Position numbers and translations under genes: made by a program
The notes under the pieces: model-generated
Databases searched by the model: none
What the model saw: the letters and a program-made list of their open reading frames with translations, nothing else
Told to the model about the DNA's origin: nothing
Part shown: in pieces, positions 1 through 48,894 of the stretch
Numbering within the stretch: position 1 is the stretch's first letter
Layout of the letters: every line of letters starts with the position of its first letter
Source of the DNA: Aphrocallistes beatrix
Taxonomy: Eukaryota; Porifera; Hexactinellida; Sceptrulophora; Aphrocallistidae
DNA: 64,000 nt
Assembly: GCA_963281255.1 (NCBI GenBank)
Contig: OY725495.1
Span: forward strand, 2,046,001 to 2,110,000
Direction of reading: 5' to 3'

Positions 1-273
1 ATATTTAAAGGGGCCAAACCATTTTGAGGTTCATATAATTGAAAAAATATCAGATAAGTTAGAAAATAATTGATGAATGCGCAGCAAAACCACGAATATC
101 TTTCCGATTTTTAGTACGACTGAGCTTTAGGAGCTCAGTTCTAGAATATCAAAATAAATACCGTCCAACAAGTACGATTAGATGGTAGACTACTCAATAT
201 TCCGATTGAATTAGCATTAAAAAATTTCACCATTTTTTTTTATGTCAGGCGATGTTTTTCGAGGGCGGTATCC
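1..273 (+). repeat. 3' end of a TTAA-flanked element (family TT1)
   Basis: This stretch matches the right-hand end of the copies at 14.5-14.98 kb and 30.4-30.89 kb. It ends in the shared terminus CGAGGGCGGTATCC, followed directly by TTAA at 274-277. The terminus is the inverse of the left terminus GGATAC(A/C)GCC seen at 11754 and 13117, each preceded by TTAA. The element is therefore a terminal-inverted-repeat (TIR) DNA transposon family with a TTAA target site, as in piggyBac or Kolobok. I see no transposase in it. The left part lies outside the window. Confidence 0.65.
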
Positions 274-280
274 TTAAAGA

Positions 281-2470: not shown

Positions 2471-3445
2471 ACTTATTTGATATGTTTTAATGTTATGGAC
2501 CCCAATGGAGATGATATTGCACAAAGATATAAAACAATGGCCAATAAAATCCAATCAATTAGTTCTATAATGGAGTTCATTTTTATAATGCTCGGGAAAT
2601 GGCCTGAATGATATCAGAAATTTAGCGATAATTGTATTAGAAATAAAATTCGGATCATTCTTGTAAAAATTTGATCCAGATCCGACCATTTGTTCGTGAG
2701 ATATCGCTAATTAATTGTAAAGTTCGGGCATTCTACCTCTCTATGTTCCTGAAAGAGGCCGATGTCATGTCTTAAAAATTATTGATTTATAATCTAGTAA
2801 AATATTAAATGAATGGATATATGCGAAAGTATATAGGTTACACAAACATATATTTCTCGATTTATCATTCACAATATTTTAATTCAAATTCTATGGAAAA
2901 CTTTAGATATATTAGAAAATGGCGAATCTAATCATGAAATATGTATCTAAATGTGGCTATTATGCAAAATAATCGATACAAATGTCGTTAATAATGTGTA
3001 TAGAAAAGGTGGAGCATTTTTCATAATTATTTTGGAAGTTCTGGCCTTGGATCTCCCCAGATTTAGTCAAAATCTCCCCCATTTAGGGTCCAAAAAGAAA
3101 AATCTCTAAGTAAATATAAGCCCAAATTCTTCCTTCTCACCTCCTGATATACTTTTTATAAGGGTATATATATGATTCATTCATAATAATTGCACCACAG
3201 CCTATGGAATTTTAAGTTTTAGATTTTTGTCTTAGATTTTTGTGATGACATAGCATTTTTCGAAAATCCCAACTTAGAAACTAAAAGTCGTAGACTTTCG
3301 TTCCAACTTCCTAATATACTTTTTAGAACCTATTTATTCATTCTAAACTGATGGATTATACTTCGTAGTGCTAGGAATATGAATTATAATTCACAAGTAT
3401 CTCAAAATATTCGGGTTTGGGGCCTCAAGGAAATTTGTGGATTAT
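2471..3445 (-). repeat. TT1 element fragment, reversed
   Basis: The reverse complement aligns with the interior of TT1 at 12.4-14.7 kb. Shared blocks include GACATCGGCCTCTT, GAACAAATGGTCGGATCTG and the segment CTTGAGGCCCCTAACCCCGA (in reverse near 3420). Neither TIR is present, so it is an internal fragment. It abuts a Helitron-like fragment at ~3450. Confidence 0.65.
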
Positions 3446-13116: not shown

Positions 13117-14981
13117 GGATACCGCCGCTGAAAAATCCATAGGTTTGGCTTACGGCATATATCAAGAAGAGATATATATAAGATGTTAAGCGTGGGCAGG
13201 TAGTGCAATTAAAAAATATTTAGACATGCCAAACAGTTTTTGTTTCGCATTTCTAGTTTTTGAGTTACAGCGTCTCAAAGTCAATTATTTTCCGTTTTTC
13301 CCTAGCACATCTTAATGTTAAGCCCTCCTCCACTCTGTGAATTTTTTGAAACACTTGTTTGGATCAAATGCTTCGAAAATTTATTCATATATTGTCTATC
13401 AAATTCGCTATCGCATAGGACCAAAAGAAAGTTCAAATAACCAAAATTGTTAATTGTATAGGGTTTTGAAAAAAATTGCCAAAAAAAGGCGAAAAAAGCC
13501 CGATTTTCTATGGAAATCAGGAATAAAATCACAAATTTATAAGATATCGAAAATCGAGTGGTCCTACGTTCATCGCCTAATGATATGGAACAACTCTTGA
13601 AATTTACAAACATCTATATCAAAGCAATTTTGAGTTTAATTTTTGAAAAACGGTCAATTTGGAATTTTAAAGCCCCGAGATATAGGGATTTGAAGTTTTA
13701 TGTTAAGAACGATGTAAAATGAACTATTAACGATAAATAAAAGTATCCATGGGCATTTAATCGCATTTATACTGATGAATTAGATATATTCCAACAGATT
13801 TTGAGGAAAATAGCAAAATTATACTGAAAATTCGCAAATTACCTTGAGGCCTCTAACCCCGAATATTTTGAACAAATTGGGAAATATAATTCATACTCCT
13901 GGCACTGCAAAGTATAATCTATCGGTTTAGAATGAATAACGAACTTCTAAAAAGTATATTAGGAAGTTAGAACGAGAGTCTACGACTTTTAGTTTTCAAG
14001 TTAGGATTTTCGAAAAATGCTACGTCATCACGTGATAAAAATTTAAAACTTACCATTCCATTCCATGTAGTATACTTATTATTAAAGTATCAGATATATA
14101 CTGTCTTGAAAAGTATATTAGGAATTGAGAGCTATGAATTTGGGCATAGTAGTATATTTCCAGAGATAGGGAGGATTCAGTTTTTGGACCATAAATGGGG
14201 GTTTTGACCGAATCTGGGACGTAAAAGGCCAGAACTTCCAAAATAATCATGAAAAGTGAACCAATTTTTCAGTATCCATTTTTAGTTACAATTGCATTGA
14301 TTTTTTAGTTTACTAGCTACATTTGGACACATATTCCATGACTAGATTCGCCATTTTATAATATAGTCAAAGTTCTCCATAGAATTTGTATTTCAATAAA
14401 ATCAATGATAAGTCAAGAAATATTTATTTTTTGACAAAGAGATTTTTGAGGAACCTATATATTATCATATATATCCTTTCATTTAAGATGATCATAGATT
14501 ATATATCTTTAATAGTCTTTAAGATATGACATCGGCCTCTTCAGGGAACCCAGAGAGGCACAATGTCCGAACTTTACCTATAATATACGATAACTTACGA
14601 ACAAATGGTCGGATCTGAAAAATTTTTTAATAAAAATGATCAGAATTCTATTTTAGATACAACAATTAATACCACAGAGGCCTTTTCCCTAGCATTTTAG
14701 AAATGAAGTCCTTCATGGAGCTATTTTGATTGGATTTATATGCCTTTTTTTTTCTAAATTTTTGTGTTTTATAATCTCTAAATGGGCCAAAATCATTTTT
14801 AAAACATTAATTTCCAATATTTACTAACACTAATCTTTAGGGGGTCACCACAGAAAAATCAAAATAAATACCTTCCAACAAGTACGATTAGATGGTAGAC
14901 CACTCATTAATATAATGGAATAAACAACAAAAAATTTTGCCATTTTTTTATGTCATGCGATGTTTTTCGAGGGCAGTATCC
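13117..14981 (+). mobile_element. TT1 copy A2 (1865 bp), inserted in A1
   Basis: It begins GGATACCGCC directly after TTAA (13113-13116) and ends CGAGGGCAGTATCC at 14981. The TTAA that should follow is displaced to 18400-18403 by the Transib insertion. TIRs are short (~20 bp, GGATAC-GCC-CGAAAAA). The interior carries the family hallmark GACATCGGCCTCTT and no transposase, so it is non-autonomous. TTAA target specificity suggests piggyBac or Kolobok machinery. Confidence 0.75.
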
Positions 14982-15692
14982 CACAGTGGTTTAGAACCAA
15001 AGAATAGGAAAAAAATAGATCTCCTTTCCTATGATTTTATTCGATTACTTATTGTTTGAATAAAACTTGTTTCAATTTTCTAAGCAATTGAGTGCCTAGA
15101 AGCAGTACAAATATGCATGTTCATTTTAGCTAAAATTGTGGTTCCGGGGAATTCTAAATTTAACCTCAATTCAAATATAAGCAAAATCATTTTCTAACAA
15201 TACAAGACGAAAAATTCAGTTTAGTTTATACATTTAAAGTATGCTGAAACCGAATAACCTGTTTTCATTCAAGTATTTTCAATATTTCAGTTGAGAAATT
15301 AAATTCTATACTTGTTGCTAACTTAGAATCAAAATTTATTTGATAAAAAATTGAAAAGTGCTCGCAAAAGTAAACTTTACAAAACTTCAATTAGATATTG
15401 ATACAATATACCCCTAACTAGATCTAAATTCATAGTTTAAACGGATACGCCCCGAAACAGTGCGCAAAGTAAGATTTTATATTGAATTCCATTGTCATAT
15501 TTTTGTTGTTAGGCAAATTCCATTGTCAAATATTGTAACTATGTAACAAAATAAGATATTATTCTTACAACCACACTCATCGTATTTCAACTCAAAGTAT
15601 GAACACTATACCGATATTATAAATAAATGTCTGATGATGTAAAAAGCTTCAGTATTGGAATCTCTTAATCATTATTCATTGACACATTCCTC

Positions 15693-17873
15693 ATGGCTGA
15701 GAAGTTATCTTTCCCAAATTCCCGTATTGAATTTGCAAGACTCTTAAAAGAAAATAACAATTGTATCTTGACAACGGTGAATTACCTACAACAAAACTTC
15801 GAATTAGATTTCGATAAGAAAAGTTTGGAATCAATACTATTCAGAATTCGAGATAGGGTCAAGAAAGCAAAGAAATCTTTAGATTGTTTAGAGGGAGAAT
15901 GTTGGCACTCTAACATTTCCACTGAACCAGAGGTGAAAAAAAATCGCATTTCTGACTCCCTTGATTTGCCTTCAGACGACGAAGCAGAAGTAGCCACACT
16001 TTCTGTGACCCATAGGAAGACCCTTGATCATCTTTCCATGCAACAGCAACGTTCTCGACTCTCAAGTGTGCTGGAATCTATCAAGTCACTCTCACTGATT
16101 GAGAATACCTCTGAAATAAAAATCGCGGCGCTTGCCTTACAACTGTTATCCAATCTAACAGAGAATCGTGGGATAGCAAAAGTTTCAAAGTCAATCGTGT
16201 ATGATAAGTTCCCCGGTCAATTCGGGAACATATTGAAGAAAGAACTGGATGTCAGCAAAGCGTTATTCCTTGTAGATATGTTAGAGATTGGGAGGAGAAA
16301 ATATACGAACCTACGCCATCACTTGCTATCTAGCGATATTCATTTCCCTGCATATCATAAGGTTGTGGAACAAAGGAACAGCATTATTTTACGAAATATT
16401 ATTCAATTATATCCCAATCCTGCTACTCCAGTTGGTGCGCACGTACCATATGCACAATACGTCCGTCATACACTCGACCGAATCTTGTTCACCATACCTC
16501 CTCCTGCAGCTCAAGACTTTCCTCTGCGATTTCAGATTGCAGATGGACTAGATGGCTCCGGAAGTCACAGAATTTACAACCAGTCTAGCACGAATACAGA
16601 GACTAAAGCATACATCCTATTCTGTTTTAAGGCAGTGCAGATTACAACCTTCAGCGGTCGAGAACTCTGGAAAAACACCAGTCCGAATTCTCCCTTCACC
16701 CAGCGACCCATTTTCCTTCTCGCTGCGAAGGAAAATGAAAATAATATCAAGCAGTTCATGACCGATTTAATCAATCCGGAAACTGAGTTAATGAAGAATG
16801 AAGGATTTTCTCTTGGGGATAATCAACAAGTTCATATCGACATTGTTCGGTCAATGTTTGATGGGAAAATGTCAGCAATTCTATCTGGAGCAGGTGGGGC
16901 AAGTTGCCAATTATGTACCGCTACTCACGATGAACTGAAAGATCGTGAATTGATAATACAGGGATTTCCTATCAATAGACACATCACTGACGCCATTCAA
17001 CTATTTGGAGAAATCGAAGATAACGATTCTTTCTTTTCTCTACCCTCAAACGAACGTTATAACCTCACCCACGAACCAACTTCCACTATAAATATCCTTC
17101 CAGCATCTCCTCTACACTCATACACTTGTATCTTCAGGTGGTTTACTCTACTAGTTTATCATTTGAGCTGCGGTAAACTTACATGGTCACCAACATCGAC
17201 TGCAGTTAAAAATTCGATGGTCTTTGTCAGAACTCTCGTACAAGAGAAGACTGGTTTGAAGATAGACCAGCCTGATCCTAAGGGGGGTACTACCTCTACT
17301 GGTGGTGTTGCGCGTCGAGCTTTTTCCTCCGAGTCAAAATTTATTGATTGCGTTTCGTCATGTGTTGCAATTGAGTACAGGGAGACACTTTCACAATTAC
17401 ATACACGATTGTCATCTATTCTTAGAATAATAAATTCAGACAGGAAGATACACACCGAAGAATTTGGCGATCTATGCACGAACACCTATCTCTTAATTCT
17501 GGACTCGTTTCCTTGGGCAGGCGTTACACCGACATTGCATCGCGTATTAGCTCACTCAGAAGAAATTTTGAACGACTTGAATTTCGGACACGGCTTGAAA
17601 TGCTTCTCTGAGGAAGGTTCCGAGGCCCGTAACAAGCTAATAAGAAAGTACAGGGAGAATCTCGCTAGGAAGTGTTCATTTGAAGACAATGTGGTTGACA
17701 TTTTTGTGAGATTGGCTTCTGAAAGTGACCCCATACTAAATCTATTCCGATCAAAGTTAGTTTGCGAAAGATGTGGAGAACACGGGCACACAAAAAGAGC
17801 TAAGTGTTGCAGAAATAATTCATCACTTTCATCAATAGATACAATTGTCGATACACTCATAATTAACACTTAG
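15693..17873 (+). CDS. Transib transposase, RAG1-related (726 aa)
   Basis: An RNase-H-fold DDE recombinase that would nick and hairpin at CACAGTG-type ends in the nucleus. The frame is uninterrupted and full length for Transib (usually 650-750 aa). Catalytic candidates by motif: Asp284/Asp287 in ADGLDGSGSH (RAG1 D600 region), Asp390 in SMFDGKMSAIL (D708) and Glu644 in SEEGSEARNKLIRKYR (E962). The zinc pair C405-x2-C408 (CQLC) and H616-x4-H621 (HRVLAH) match the RAG1 C727/C730 and H937/H942 pattern. The C-terminus adds CERCGEHGHTKRAKC (residues 691-705), a zinc-knuckle-like cluster. There is no RING or RAG2 partner, so Transib rather than a RAG-like (ProtoRAG) element. No introns are needed. 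Confidence 0.9.
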   Translation: MAEKLSFPNSRIEFARLLKENNNCILTTVNYLQQNFELDFDKKSLESILFRIRDRVKKAKKSLDCLEGECWHSNISTEPEVKKNRISDSLDLPSDDEAEVATLSVTHRKTLDHLSMQQQRSRLSSVLESIKSLSLIENTSEIKIAALALQLLSNLTENRGIAKVSKSIVYDKFPGQFGNILKKELDVSKALFLVDMLEIGRRKYTNLRHHLLSSDIHFPAYHKVVEQRNSIILRNIIQLYPNPATPVGAHVPYAQYVRHTLDRILFTIPPPAAQDFPLRFQIADGLDGSGSHRIYNQSSTNTETKAYILFCFKAVQITTFSGRELWKNTSPNSPFTQRPIFLLAAKENENNIKQFMTDLINPETELMKNEGFSLGDNQQVHIDIVRSMFDGKMSAILSGAGGASCQLCTATHDELKDRELIIQGFPINRHITDAIQLFGEIEDNDSFFSLPSNERYNLTHEPTSTINILPASPLHSYTCIFRWFTLLVYHLSCGKLTWSPTSTAVKNSMVFVRTLVQEKTGLKIDQPDPKGGTTSTGGVARRAFSSESKFIDCVSSCVAIEYRETLSQLHTRLSSILRIINSDRKIHTEEFGDLCTNTYLLILDSFPWAGVTPTLHRVLAHSEEILNDLNFGHGLKCFSEEGSEARNKLIRKYRENLARKCSFEDNVVDIFVRLASESDPILNLFRSKLVCERCGEHGHTKRAKCCRNNSSLSSIDTIVDTLIINT

Positions 17874-18049
17874 ATTTATAGGATTAGTACAATATTTGTG
17901 TATGTGTGTTGTCATCATCATTAAGAATCATTGTGTCTTCATTTGACAATCAAATTATCGTGTACTGCGGGTTTTCCCACTTTTGATGTACAGTTTATCT
18001 CATAATATTTATACGATTTTCTGAGATGTGGAAAATTTTTTTGAAAAAT

Positions 18050-18360
18050 GCAATATAAAATATATTCACCAAATTCTAGGTAAACCATATCTCGAAAAAA
18101 CGAAGACATATAACAATTCTGAGTGCACTAATGGCTTTCTAGGGGTTGATAACCTATATGAATCTAATACATTTCATGGAGCTAATAGCAAATCTGAAAG
18201 AAATATGAGCAAAAGAACAAATTTCGGCAAAATATGGGGAAGCCATATCTTGCACAGCTGAAGCCATATAAAATTTTTTATTATGCCAATCGTTTTCCAA
18301 GGGTGGATAACCTATATGCATATAATACATTTGATAGGGCTAACGTGCATCTATATACCT
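18050..18360 (+). repeat. Subterminal direct repeats in the Transib 3' region
   Basis: Two diverged ~130-bp copies, about 18075-18190 and 18240-18355, share CCATATCT..., GGATAACCTATATG and AATACATTT...GCTAA. They lie between the transposase stop and the right TIR. They could be subterminal binding repeats, but this is only inferred from position. Confidence 0.5.
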
Positions 18361-18399
18361 ATTCTTTACTAACTGTGTTTTTAAACCACTGTGATATCC

Positions 18400-18694
18400 T
18401 TAAGAATATAATATATTATATATCTTCAATAGTTTTTAAGATATGACATCGGCCTCTTTCGGGACCATAGACAGATATTATGCCCGAACTTTACCTATAA
18501 TAAGCGATATCTCACGAACAAATGGTCAGATCCGAAAAAATTTTTAACGATCAGAATTTTATTTCTGATCCAGTGATCGCTAAATATCTGATATCAAACA
18601 TGCGATTTCCCGAGCATTATATAAATGAACTCCCTTATAGGGCTATTTAGTTGGAAGGTCCATATCATTAAAAAATGATCAAATAAGTTCAAAA
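18400..18694 (+). mobile_element. TT1 copy A1, right part (truncated)
   Basis: The A1 interior resumes after TTAA at 18400-18403 with the family block GACATCGGCCTCTTTCGGG and AACAAATGGTCAGATC. It breaks off at ~18695 where the inverted-repeat-bounded Gypsy segment begins, and the TT1 right terminus is not found downstream. Confidence 0.65.
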
Positions 18695-30371: not shown

Positions 30372-30894
30372 AATTATATAACTTATCAATTTTTAAGATA
30401 TGACCTTGGCCTCTTTGGGGACCATAGAGAGGTATATTTTCCGAAATTATCTATAATAAGCGATAACTTACGAACTAATGGTCGGATCCGAACAAATTCT
30501 TTTCAAAAAATGACTATATTTTTATTTCAGATACAATTGTCGCTAAATATCTGATATCAAACCGGTTTTTAGCTTGTTTAATATTTTATTAATGATATGG
30601 ACCTCAACATTGTTTTGGCCCCTTTGGAGATTATAAAACACAAAGATTTAGAAGAAAGGTCTATAAAATCCAACTAAAATAGCTCAATAAGGGAGTTCAT
30701 TTATATAATGGTCGGGAAATGTCCAATAATTTTCAATTTTTAGTAACGCTAAACTTTAGGGGGTTAACTCAAATCAAAATAAATACCGTCTAACTAGTAC
30801 TATTAGATGGTAGACCACTCAGTAATTCAATGGAATTAACAATAAAAAAATTGTCGTTTTTTCAGTCAGGCAAAGTTTATCGTGGGCGGTATCC
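30372..30894 (+). mobile_element. TT1, right part
   Basis: Family block GACCTTGGCCTCTTTGGGG through the right terminus CGTGGGCGGTATCC, followed by TTAA at 30895-30898. The left part is absent; the HLE lies directly upstream. Confidence 0.7.
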
Positions 30895-30926
30895 TTAATG
30901 TGCACCCTAAACTATTTAAAGGCTTT

Positions 30927-44984: not shown

Positions 44985-48894
<3,910 letters not shown>

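Follow-up and report, generated by a model that had tools for sequence, protein, structure and literature searches.

The element and its insertion site

The window considered here, a stretch of 64,000 nucleotides from the hexactinellid sponge Aphrocallistes beatrix (contig OY725495.1, positions 2,046,001 to 2,110,000), contains a Transib transposon at 14982..18393 of the forward strand, whose transposase is a relative of RAG1, the enzyme that cleaves antibody genes in vertebrates. The 3,412-bp element is delimited by its inverted ends, an open frame, empty sites and near-identical copies elsewhere. Judging from its sequence, it is likely to be a Transib of the kind published as 'Subgroup I', young, complete in structure and of autonomous type, moving by cut-and-paste with a DDE (Asp-Asp-Glu) transposase and using a proposed mechanism based on unequal ends. 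Transibs of this kind were known already, and the element adds one more to them.

The inverted ends consist of CACAGTGGTTTA, starting at 14982, and its complement, finishing at 18393, with CACAGTGG terminal on both sides, in the form CACxxTG that Transib ends share with the heptamer of recombination signals. A target duplication, TATCC, lies at 14977..14981 on the left and at 18395..18399 on the right, where a single A (18394), taken as an added base, separates it from the end of the element. The preliminary description had read both inverted ends and TATCC, and both stand, except that on the right the duplication lies one base away from the element. Alternatively, the duplication could measure 6 bp and have undergone one G-to-A change; this reading would be possible for the window copy alone, and it is disfavoured because 9 of 32 insertions carry extra bases, on either side.

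Host repeats make up both flanks of the element. Two further copies of the repeat on the left (101..277 and 30724..30898, both on the forward strand) have the site unbroken: TATCC, ending at 273 and 30894, respectively, is followed by TTAA, and the sequence runs on as GGGCGGTATCCTTAA. The preliminary description had proposed looking for such uninterrupted sites and for further near-identical copies, and both were found, the copies being 0.38–0.79% away. They also bear on the idea that the locus holds a domesticated, immobile RAG1-like host gene. An open 726-aa frame with homology to RAG1 would suit such a gene, but the two ends, the target duplication, the empty sites and the near-identical copies elsewhere rule it out in our view, leaving it hardly any probability.

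The host repeat hit by the Transib covers window positions 14300-14981 and 18400-18655, and further copies lie at 2482-2973, 30373-30894 and 101-273. Host-repeat copies terminate in GGGCGGTATCC, followed by TTAA, and the inverse, GATACCGCC, stands at 13118. These features suggest that the repeat is a TTAA-targeting transposon or a remnant of one.

The transposase

The transposase gene occupies 15693..17873 (forward strand) and encodes 726 aa from its ATG, with no intron needed. An in-frame stop precedes it at 15666 and none lies within, in agreement with the 726-codon frame first described. It is the only long frame of the element, which is a single-gene transposon without RAG2; a Pfam search of the genome for RAG2 gave no match, but the control was equally silent.

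Compared alone with the PDB, the protein matches HzTransib best (6pqn, E value 2.8e-24), followed by BbRAG1L (6b40, 3.5e-10) and RAG1 (3.7e-4 and weaker), which bears out its description as a Transib and RAG1 homolog. Its match to the Pfam RAG1 family has an E value of 0.0013, under the Pfam cut-off. A profile of five proteins of the same genome, two fragments among them, raises the matches to 5.8e-42 for HzTransib, 5.8e-15 for BbRAG1L and 6.5e-14 for RAG1. The profile also matches the 96-residue RAG1 chain 3gna (E value 7e-4), which we take to be the isolated nonamer-binding domain of RAG1; the match corresponds, by approximate mapping, to residues 106-170 of the window protein, placing the nonamer-binding-homologous stretch at about 16008..16202 (forward strand).

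The catalytic residues are encoded on the forward strand at 16551..16553 (D287, the first Asp), 16860..16862 (D390, the second) and 17622..17624 (E644), and the zinc site at 16905..16916 (C405 and C408) and 17538..17555 (H616 and H621). All of these align with their counterparts in HzTransib, BbRAG1L and mouse RAG1, the catalytic ones presumably being D600, D708 and E962 in RAG1 numbering. The set of residues proposed in the preliminary description is thus upheld with one exception: D284, also named there as catalytic, aligns with W in HzTransib, E in RAG1 and D in BbRAG1L, and was rejected.

HzTransib shares 27.6% identity with the window protein over 435 aligned residues, its DDE and zinc residues being alike. 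It differs between the zinc-site cysteines and the following histidine: C408 and H475 are 67 residues apart in the window protein and the equivalent distance is 61 in BbRAG1L, but only 31 in HzTransib. The stretch concerned, residues 409-474 (16917..17114, forward strand), has a counterpart in BbRAG1L, and HzTransib is about 36 residues shorter there. A region equivalent to α11–α12 of RAG1 is recognized in the window transposase by length alone. Towards the C terminus, residues 691-705 form a zinc knuckle, CERCGEHGHTKRAKC (17763..17807, forward strand). It is close to the RAG1L-tail motif CX2CX3GHX4C, which the text of PMC7204232 describes as crucial if the amphioxus enzyme is to be fully active.

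Copies in the genome and their age

The search of the sponge's own genome covered 100.5 Mb and gave 319 candidates, 62 of which were scored; since the assembly may also lack parts of the genome, copy numbers are lower bounds. At least 69 genome matches to the transposase were found at E values of 0.001 or below. Four of them span residues 1-726, three being free of stops (the window copy and those on C2 and C15), while the one on C13 has a single TAG. Six copies, one of them (C10) partial, were compared over 2,731–3,424 sites per pair. They differ pairwise by 0.15–0.79%, and because the window copy differs from the other five by 0.38–0.79%, its family has, on this sequence evidence, moved recently. 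Neither of the outcomes that had been named as contrary to the preliminary description, a best match outside the Transib superfamily or a genome holding old and defective copies only, was found; near-identical copies have clean 5-bp duplications.

Within its family, the window copy is not the one with the fewest changes. Ten substitutions are private to it, its 5′ non-coding part has lost 12 bp, and five amino-acid differences recur against all five other copies compared. The element had been called 'living', and a young, intact copy, one of three stop-free and full-length, is what is present; the five differences qualify that word. They also bring in a different reading, in which the family was recently active and the window copy is already dead, its frame open only from youth. 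One of the five is close to the active site, as R646, two residues from E644, is C in the other copies, and the 12-bp deletion and a near-neutral ratio of changes point the same way. The catalytic and zinc residues and both ends are nevertheless intact, and HzTransib also has R at this position (EARN). We think a dead window copy somewhat improbable, though it deserves real weight beside an autonomous-type element.

One family-A transposase gene, family A being that of the window copy, is interrupted by a 1.13-kb non-autonomous Transib of the D type (L006, about 378-1509 on the transposase strand; G000 C19:2055753-2056884). This insertion has no target duplication, and five bases, ACTCC, are missing there relative to the window copy.

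Scans for Transib relatives beyond the sponge gave 15 pattern matches in viral contigs and 143 in bacterial and archaeal genomes, none of which was confirmed; published bacterial Transibs remain compatible with the latter result.

Unequal, two-part ends

Each end of the element combines a heptamer with a second motif, at unequal spacing. At the 5′ end (14982..15008, forward strand) the heptamer CACAGTG (14982-14988) is followed by a 10-bp spacer and by AAAGAATAGG at 14999-15008, i.e. from base 18. At the 3′ end (18358..18393, reverse strand) the heptamer (18387-18393) and AAAGAATAGG (18358-18367, from base 27) are separated by 19 bp. With spacers of 10 and 19 and this motif, the ends do not have the literal 12/23 spacing and nonamer of V(D)J-type recombination signal sequences (RSSs), and such an assignment was rejected.

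The arrangement recurs among other copies. End sequences were compared in the non-coding matches that reach near an end (15 of 21 5′ and 16 of 19 3′ matches). Of the 15 left ends, 14 have GAATAGG from base 21, and of the 16 right ends, 13 have it from base 30; letters of GAATAGG are altered in two right ends (L060 and L066), and the end itself is missing from one of the left and one of the right copies. Genome-wide, gapless patterns with up to three mismatches found 13 5′ ends (nine exact) and ten 3′ ends (seven exact), against none in the control.

Other Transib families of the genome have second motifs of their own. Family B (L013 and L019; L013 is 43% identical to the window protein) has AGGGAGTTG at bases 18 and 27, and D (L016) and D2 (L022) have related motifs at about 17 and 26. 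Taken singly, the agreement at offset 9 was reached in none of 2000 shuffles for A and in one of 2000 for B. Taken jointly, the five families tested total 43 matches at +9, a number that none of 5000 shuffles attained at any common offset. The 9-bp difference in spacing is common to four of the five families tested, two of those four being related, while the motifs differ. The test rests on five families because L021 and L023-L029, whose ends were sought with loose rules, gave no credible pairs.

Pairing of ends

To see which ends face each other, pattern-found ends (13 5′ and 10 3′ for A, 20 and 9 for B, 31 and 38 for D, the last by degenerate patterns) were taken as pairs when they were facing neighbors within 7 kb. 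This gave 35 pairs: 34 join a 5′ and a 3′ end, one joins two 5′ ends and none two 3′ ends. Non-autonomous elements of 0.47–1.28 kb account for 19 of the 23 D pairs, three of them being tandem copies. The 34 of 35 support a pairing rule only weakly, since a deletion derivative keeps one 5′ and one 3′ end of its parent element.

This weakness favors another explanation of the unequal ends, namely that they have no function, the second motif being an inherited leftover and the transposase reading the terminal bases only. As far as the text of PMC7204232 goes, recognition in invertebrate RAG-like complexes has been proposed to depend mainly on the terminal 15–17 bp and to be insensitive to asymmetry, which would agree. 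On the other side, A, B and D have different motifs, yet in each family the motif recurs at one and the same offset, and chance decay would not keep that. We consider a functionless second motif unlikely, and prefer unequal ends that take part in recognition.

The single 5′/5′ pair consists of two family-A ends face to face at C13:1098915-1104563 (G000), and the last 25 flanking letters are alike at both. It was rejected as an element with two 5′ ends, since the shared flanking letters point to an inverted duplication of the locus, probably of an old copy. A tandem array that includes a Transib derivative occupies G000 C20:635361-638535, where a 473-bp D-type element occurs three times at a spacing of 1,351 bp.

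Insertion junctions

Both flanks could be read for 32 elements (six of A, one of A2, four of B and 21 of D); this set omits one of the five B pairs, two of the three tandem D copies, the C13 5′/5′ pair and old C17 copies for which no pair was found. Half of the insertions (16) have a duplication of at least 5 bp abutting both ends, including four family-A copies with abutting 5-bp duplications. A further nine have one to three extra bases at one end: the A of the window copy, with its TATCC, and G, G, G, CG, TA, TT, TAT and TAT elsewhere. Two of these nine, an old A copy (C2:4963k) and a D copy (C6:3542k), are AT-rich or ambiguous cases. By the rule used, the remaining seven have no duplication. 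When flanks were mismatched as a control, two of 992 combinations appeared clean and seven appeared to have extra bases, so that about 0.2 of the latter would be expected in 32.

We prefer to attribute the extra bases to untidy joining or repair at insertion; alternatively, imprecise excision may have carried along bases of the donor site.

Other features of the window

Two direct repeats lie in the 3′ non-coding part of the Transib, at 18065..18185 (121 nt) and 18223..18343, the second being 73% identical to the first.

Among the other frames, 12 run at least 150 aa from stop to stop, ten of which were submitted to Pfam. Five of the ten match transposase domains: four of the Tc1/mariner type (one under the cut-off) and one of the hAT dimerization type. 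They measure 168–240 aa and each is partial, which fits the earlier remark that every other transposase in the window is broken, as far as the frames scanned go.

On the reverse strand, an intronless frame of 1,091 aa (44988-48260) encodes HR1 repeats, a protein kinase domain and a Pkinase_C domain; for its kinase part, the match to human protein kinase N2 has an E value of 1.1e-165. This frame is possibly a retrocopy or an intron-poor gene. Together with two matches to nuclear-receptor zinc fingers, it points to an animal host; a search for cuticle proteins gave no match, but neither did its control, so that it amounts to a hint, and no more, that the host is not an arthropod.

Comparison with known systems

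According to the text of Tao et al. 2022 (PMC9435367), Subgroup I Transibs are characterized by unequal ends, a nonamer-binding-like domain, a region equivalent to α11–α12 and the CTT1 knuckle; unequal ends are also given there for some Subgroup II Transibs. The window element shares with Subgroup I, so described, the unequal ends, the nonamer-binding-like domain and, in its family, 5-bp duplications, as well as the zinc-site stretch between Cys and His that HzTransib lacks. Its knuckle resembles CTT1 but has X5 in place of X4. The ends of HzTransib are described as symmetric in the text of PMC8289069, unlike those of the window element.

The closest counterpart in spacing is AanRAGL, an algal RAG-like transposon whose ends, in the text of PMC9435367, consist of a 13-bp element, a spacer of 4 or 13 bp and a 10-bp element. 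By our arithmetic on that text, its second motif begins at base 18 or 27, as in the window element. It differs in carrying RAG2L too and in the letters of the motif.

Vertebrate RSSs and ProtoRAG, as presented in the text of PMC8289069 and PMC8355894, are alike in having unequal spacers and a homologous core and nonamer-binding stretch, and the heptamer CACAGTG equals the RSS consensus. The spacers following the heptamer are 10/19 in the window element, 12/23 in RSSs and 27/31 in ProtoRAG, and the window element has one protein only, unlike the ProtoRAG/RAG system. Transibs of fly and mosquito of the 12/23 type also combine a heptamer with a second motif at unequal spacing; in the text of PMC8355894 that motif is assigned by its likeness to the RSS nonamer, whereas ours is assigned by likeness between the element's own two ends. 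In the main text of the literature searched, figures and supplements aside, we found no statement of a spacing constant across families or of extra junction bases. Transibs of the 12/23 type were reportedly recognized in fly and mosquito by Kapitonov and Jurka in 2005.

Mechanism and interpretation

The following steps draw on homology and on general knowledge of RAG1, ProtoRAG and Transib. The heptamer would be cut as by RAG1, through nicking followed by hairpin formation. The knuckle, together with other contacts, would read heptamer-proximal bases, while a nonamer-binding-like dimer would read the 10-bp motif at base 18 (5′) or base 27 (3′). One short-spacer end would pair with one long-spacer end, as under the 12/23 rule but without RAG2. 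The excised element would then join a target staggered by 5 bp, and joining or repair would sometimes leave one to three extra bases, as at the window copy.

Several observations weigh against an autonomous-type Subgroup I Transib with this mechanism. The knuckle, with the pattern CX2CX3GHX5C, is one residue longer than the motif published for the RAG1L tail (CX2CX3GHX4C). Families A, A2 and B possess it, but the protein tails of L016 (D), L023/L025 and L024 do not. Because D, which lacks it, has the most end matches by the patterns used, the knuckle seems dispensable, a view qualified by L016, the single D protein, which has Q at the H621 position. The window copy and C2 differ by four silent and five replacing codon changes, in which constraint is not evident. 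As to the ends, D and D2 are weak when taken singly (P = 0.03 for D and 0.014 for D2 at offset 9, rising to 0.83 and 0.30 when any offset is allowed). A2, represented by one copy (L015), fails singly, fitting +10 best and not +9. Since D and D2 share one motif, there are three independent motifs only.

A more far-reaching proposal is that these families represent a RAG2-free forerunner of the 12/23 rule, with a fixed 9-bp difference (10/19) and a changing second motif. The match to the algal transposon would then mark the ancestral form, and the roughly one quarter of insertions with one to three added bases at one junction would be an insertion-side likeness to junctional diversity. We offer this tentatively and regard it as rather doubtful.

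The window element bears on the origin of the unequal 12/23 signals used in antibody-gene recombination. In the genome of this sponge, several Transib families, diverged and in part young, combine RSS heptamers with a RAG1-type nonamer-binding stretch and with unequal ends whose second motifs are family-specific, and there is no RAG2 in the element. Such families permit a direct test of whether an unequal pair is needed without RAG2, and those with and without the tail knuckle allow its role to be asked. Of specialist interest are the constant 9-bp difference, its equality with that of the algal RAG-like transposon and the extra bases at the junctions.

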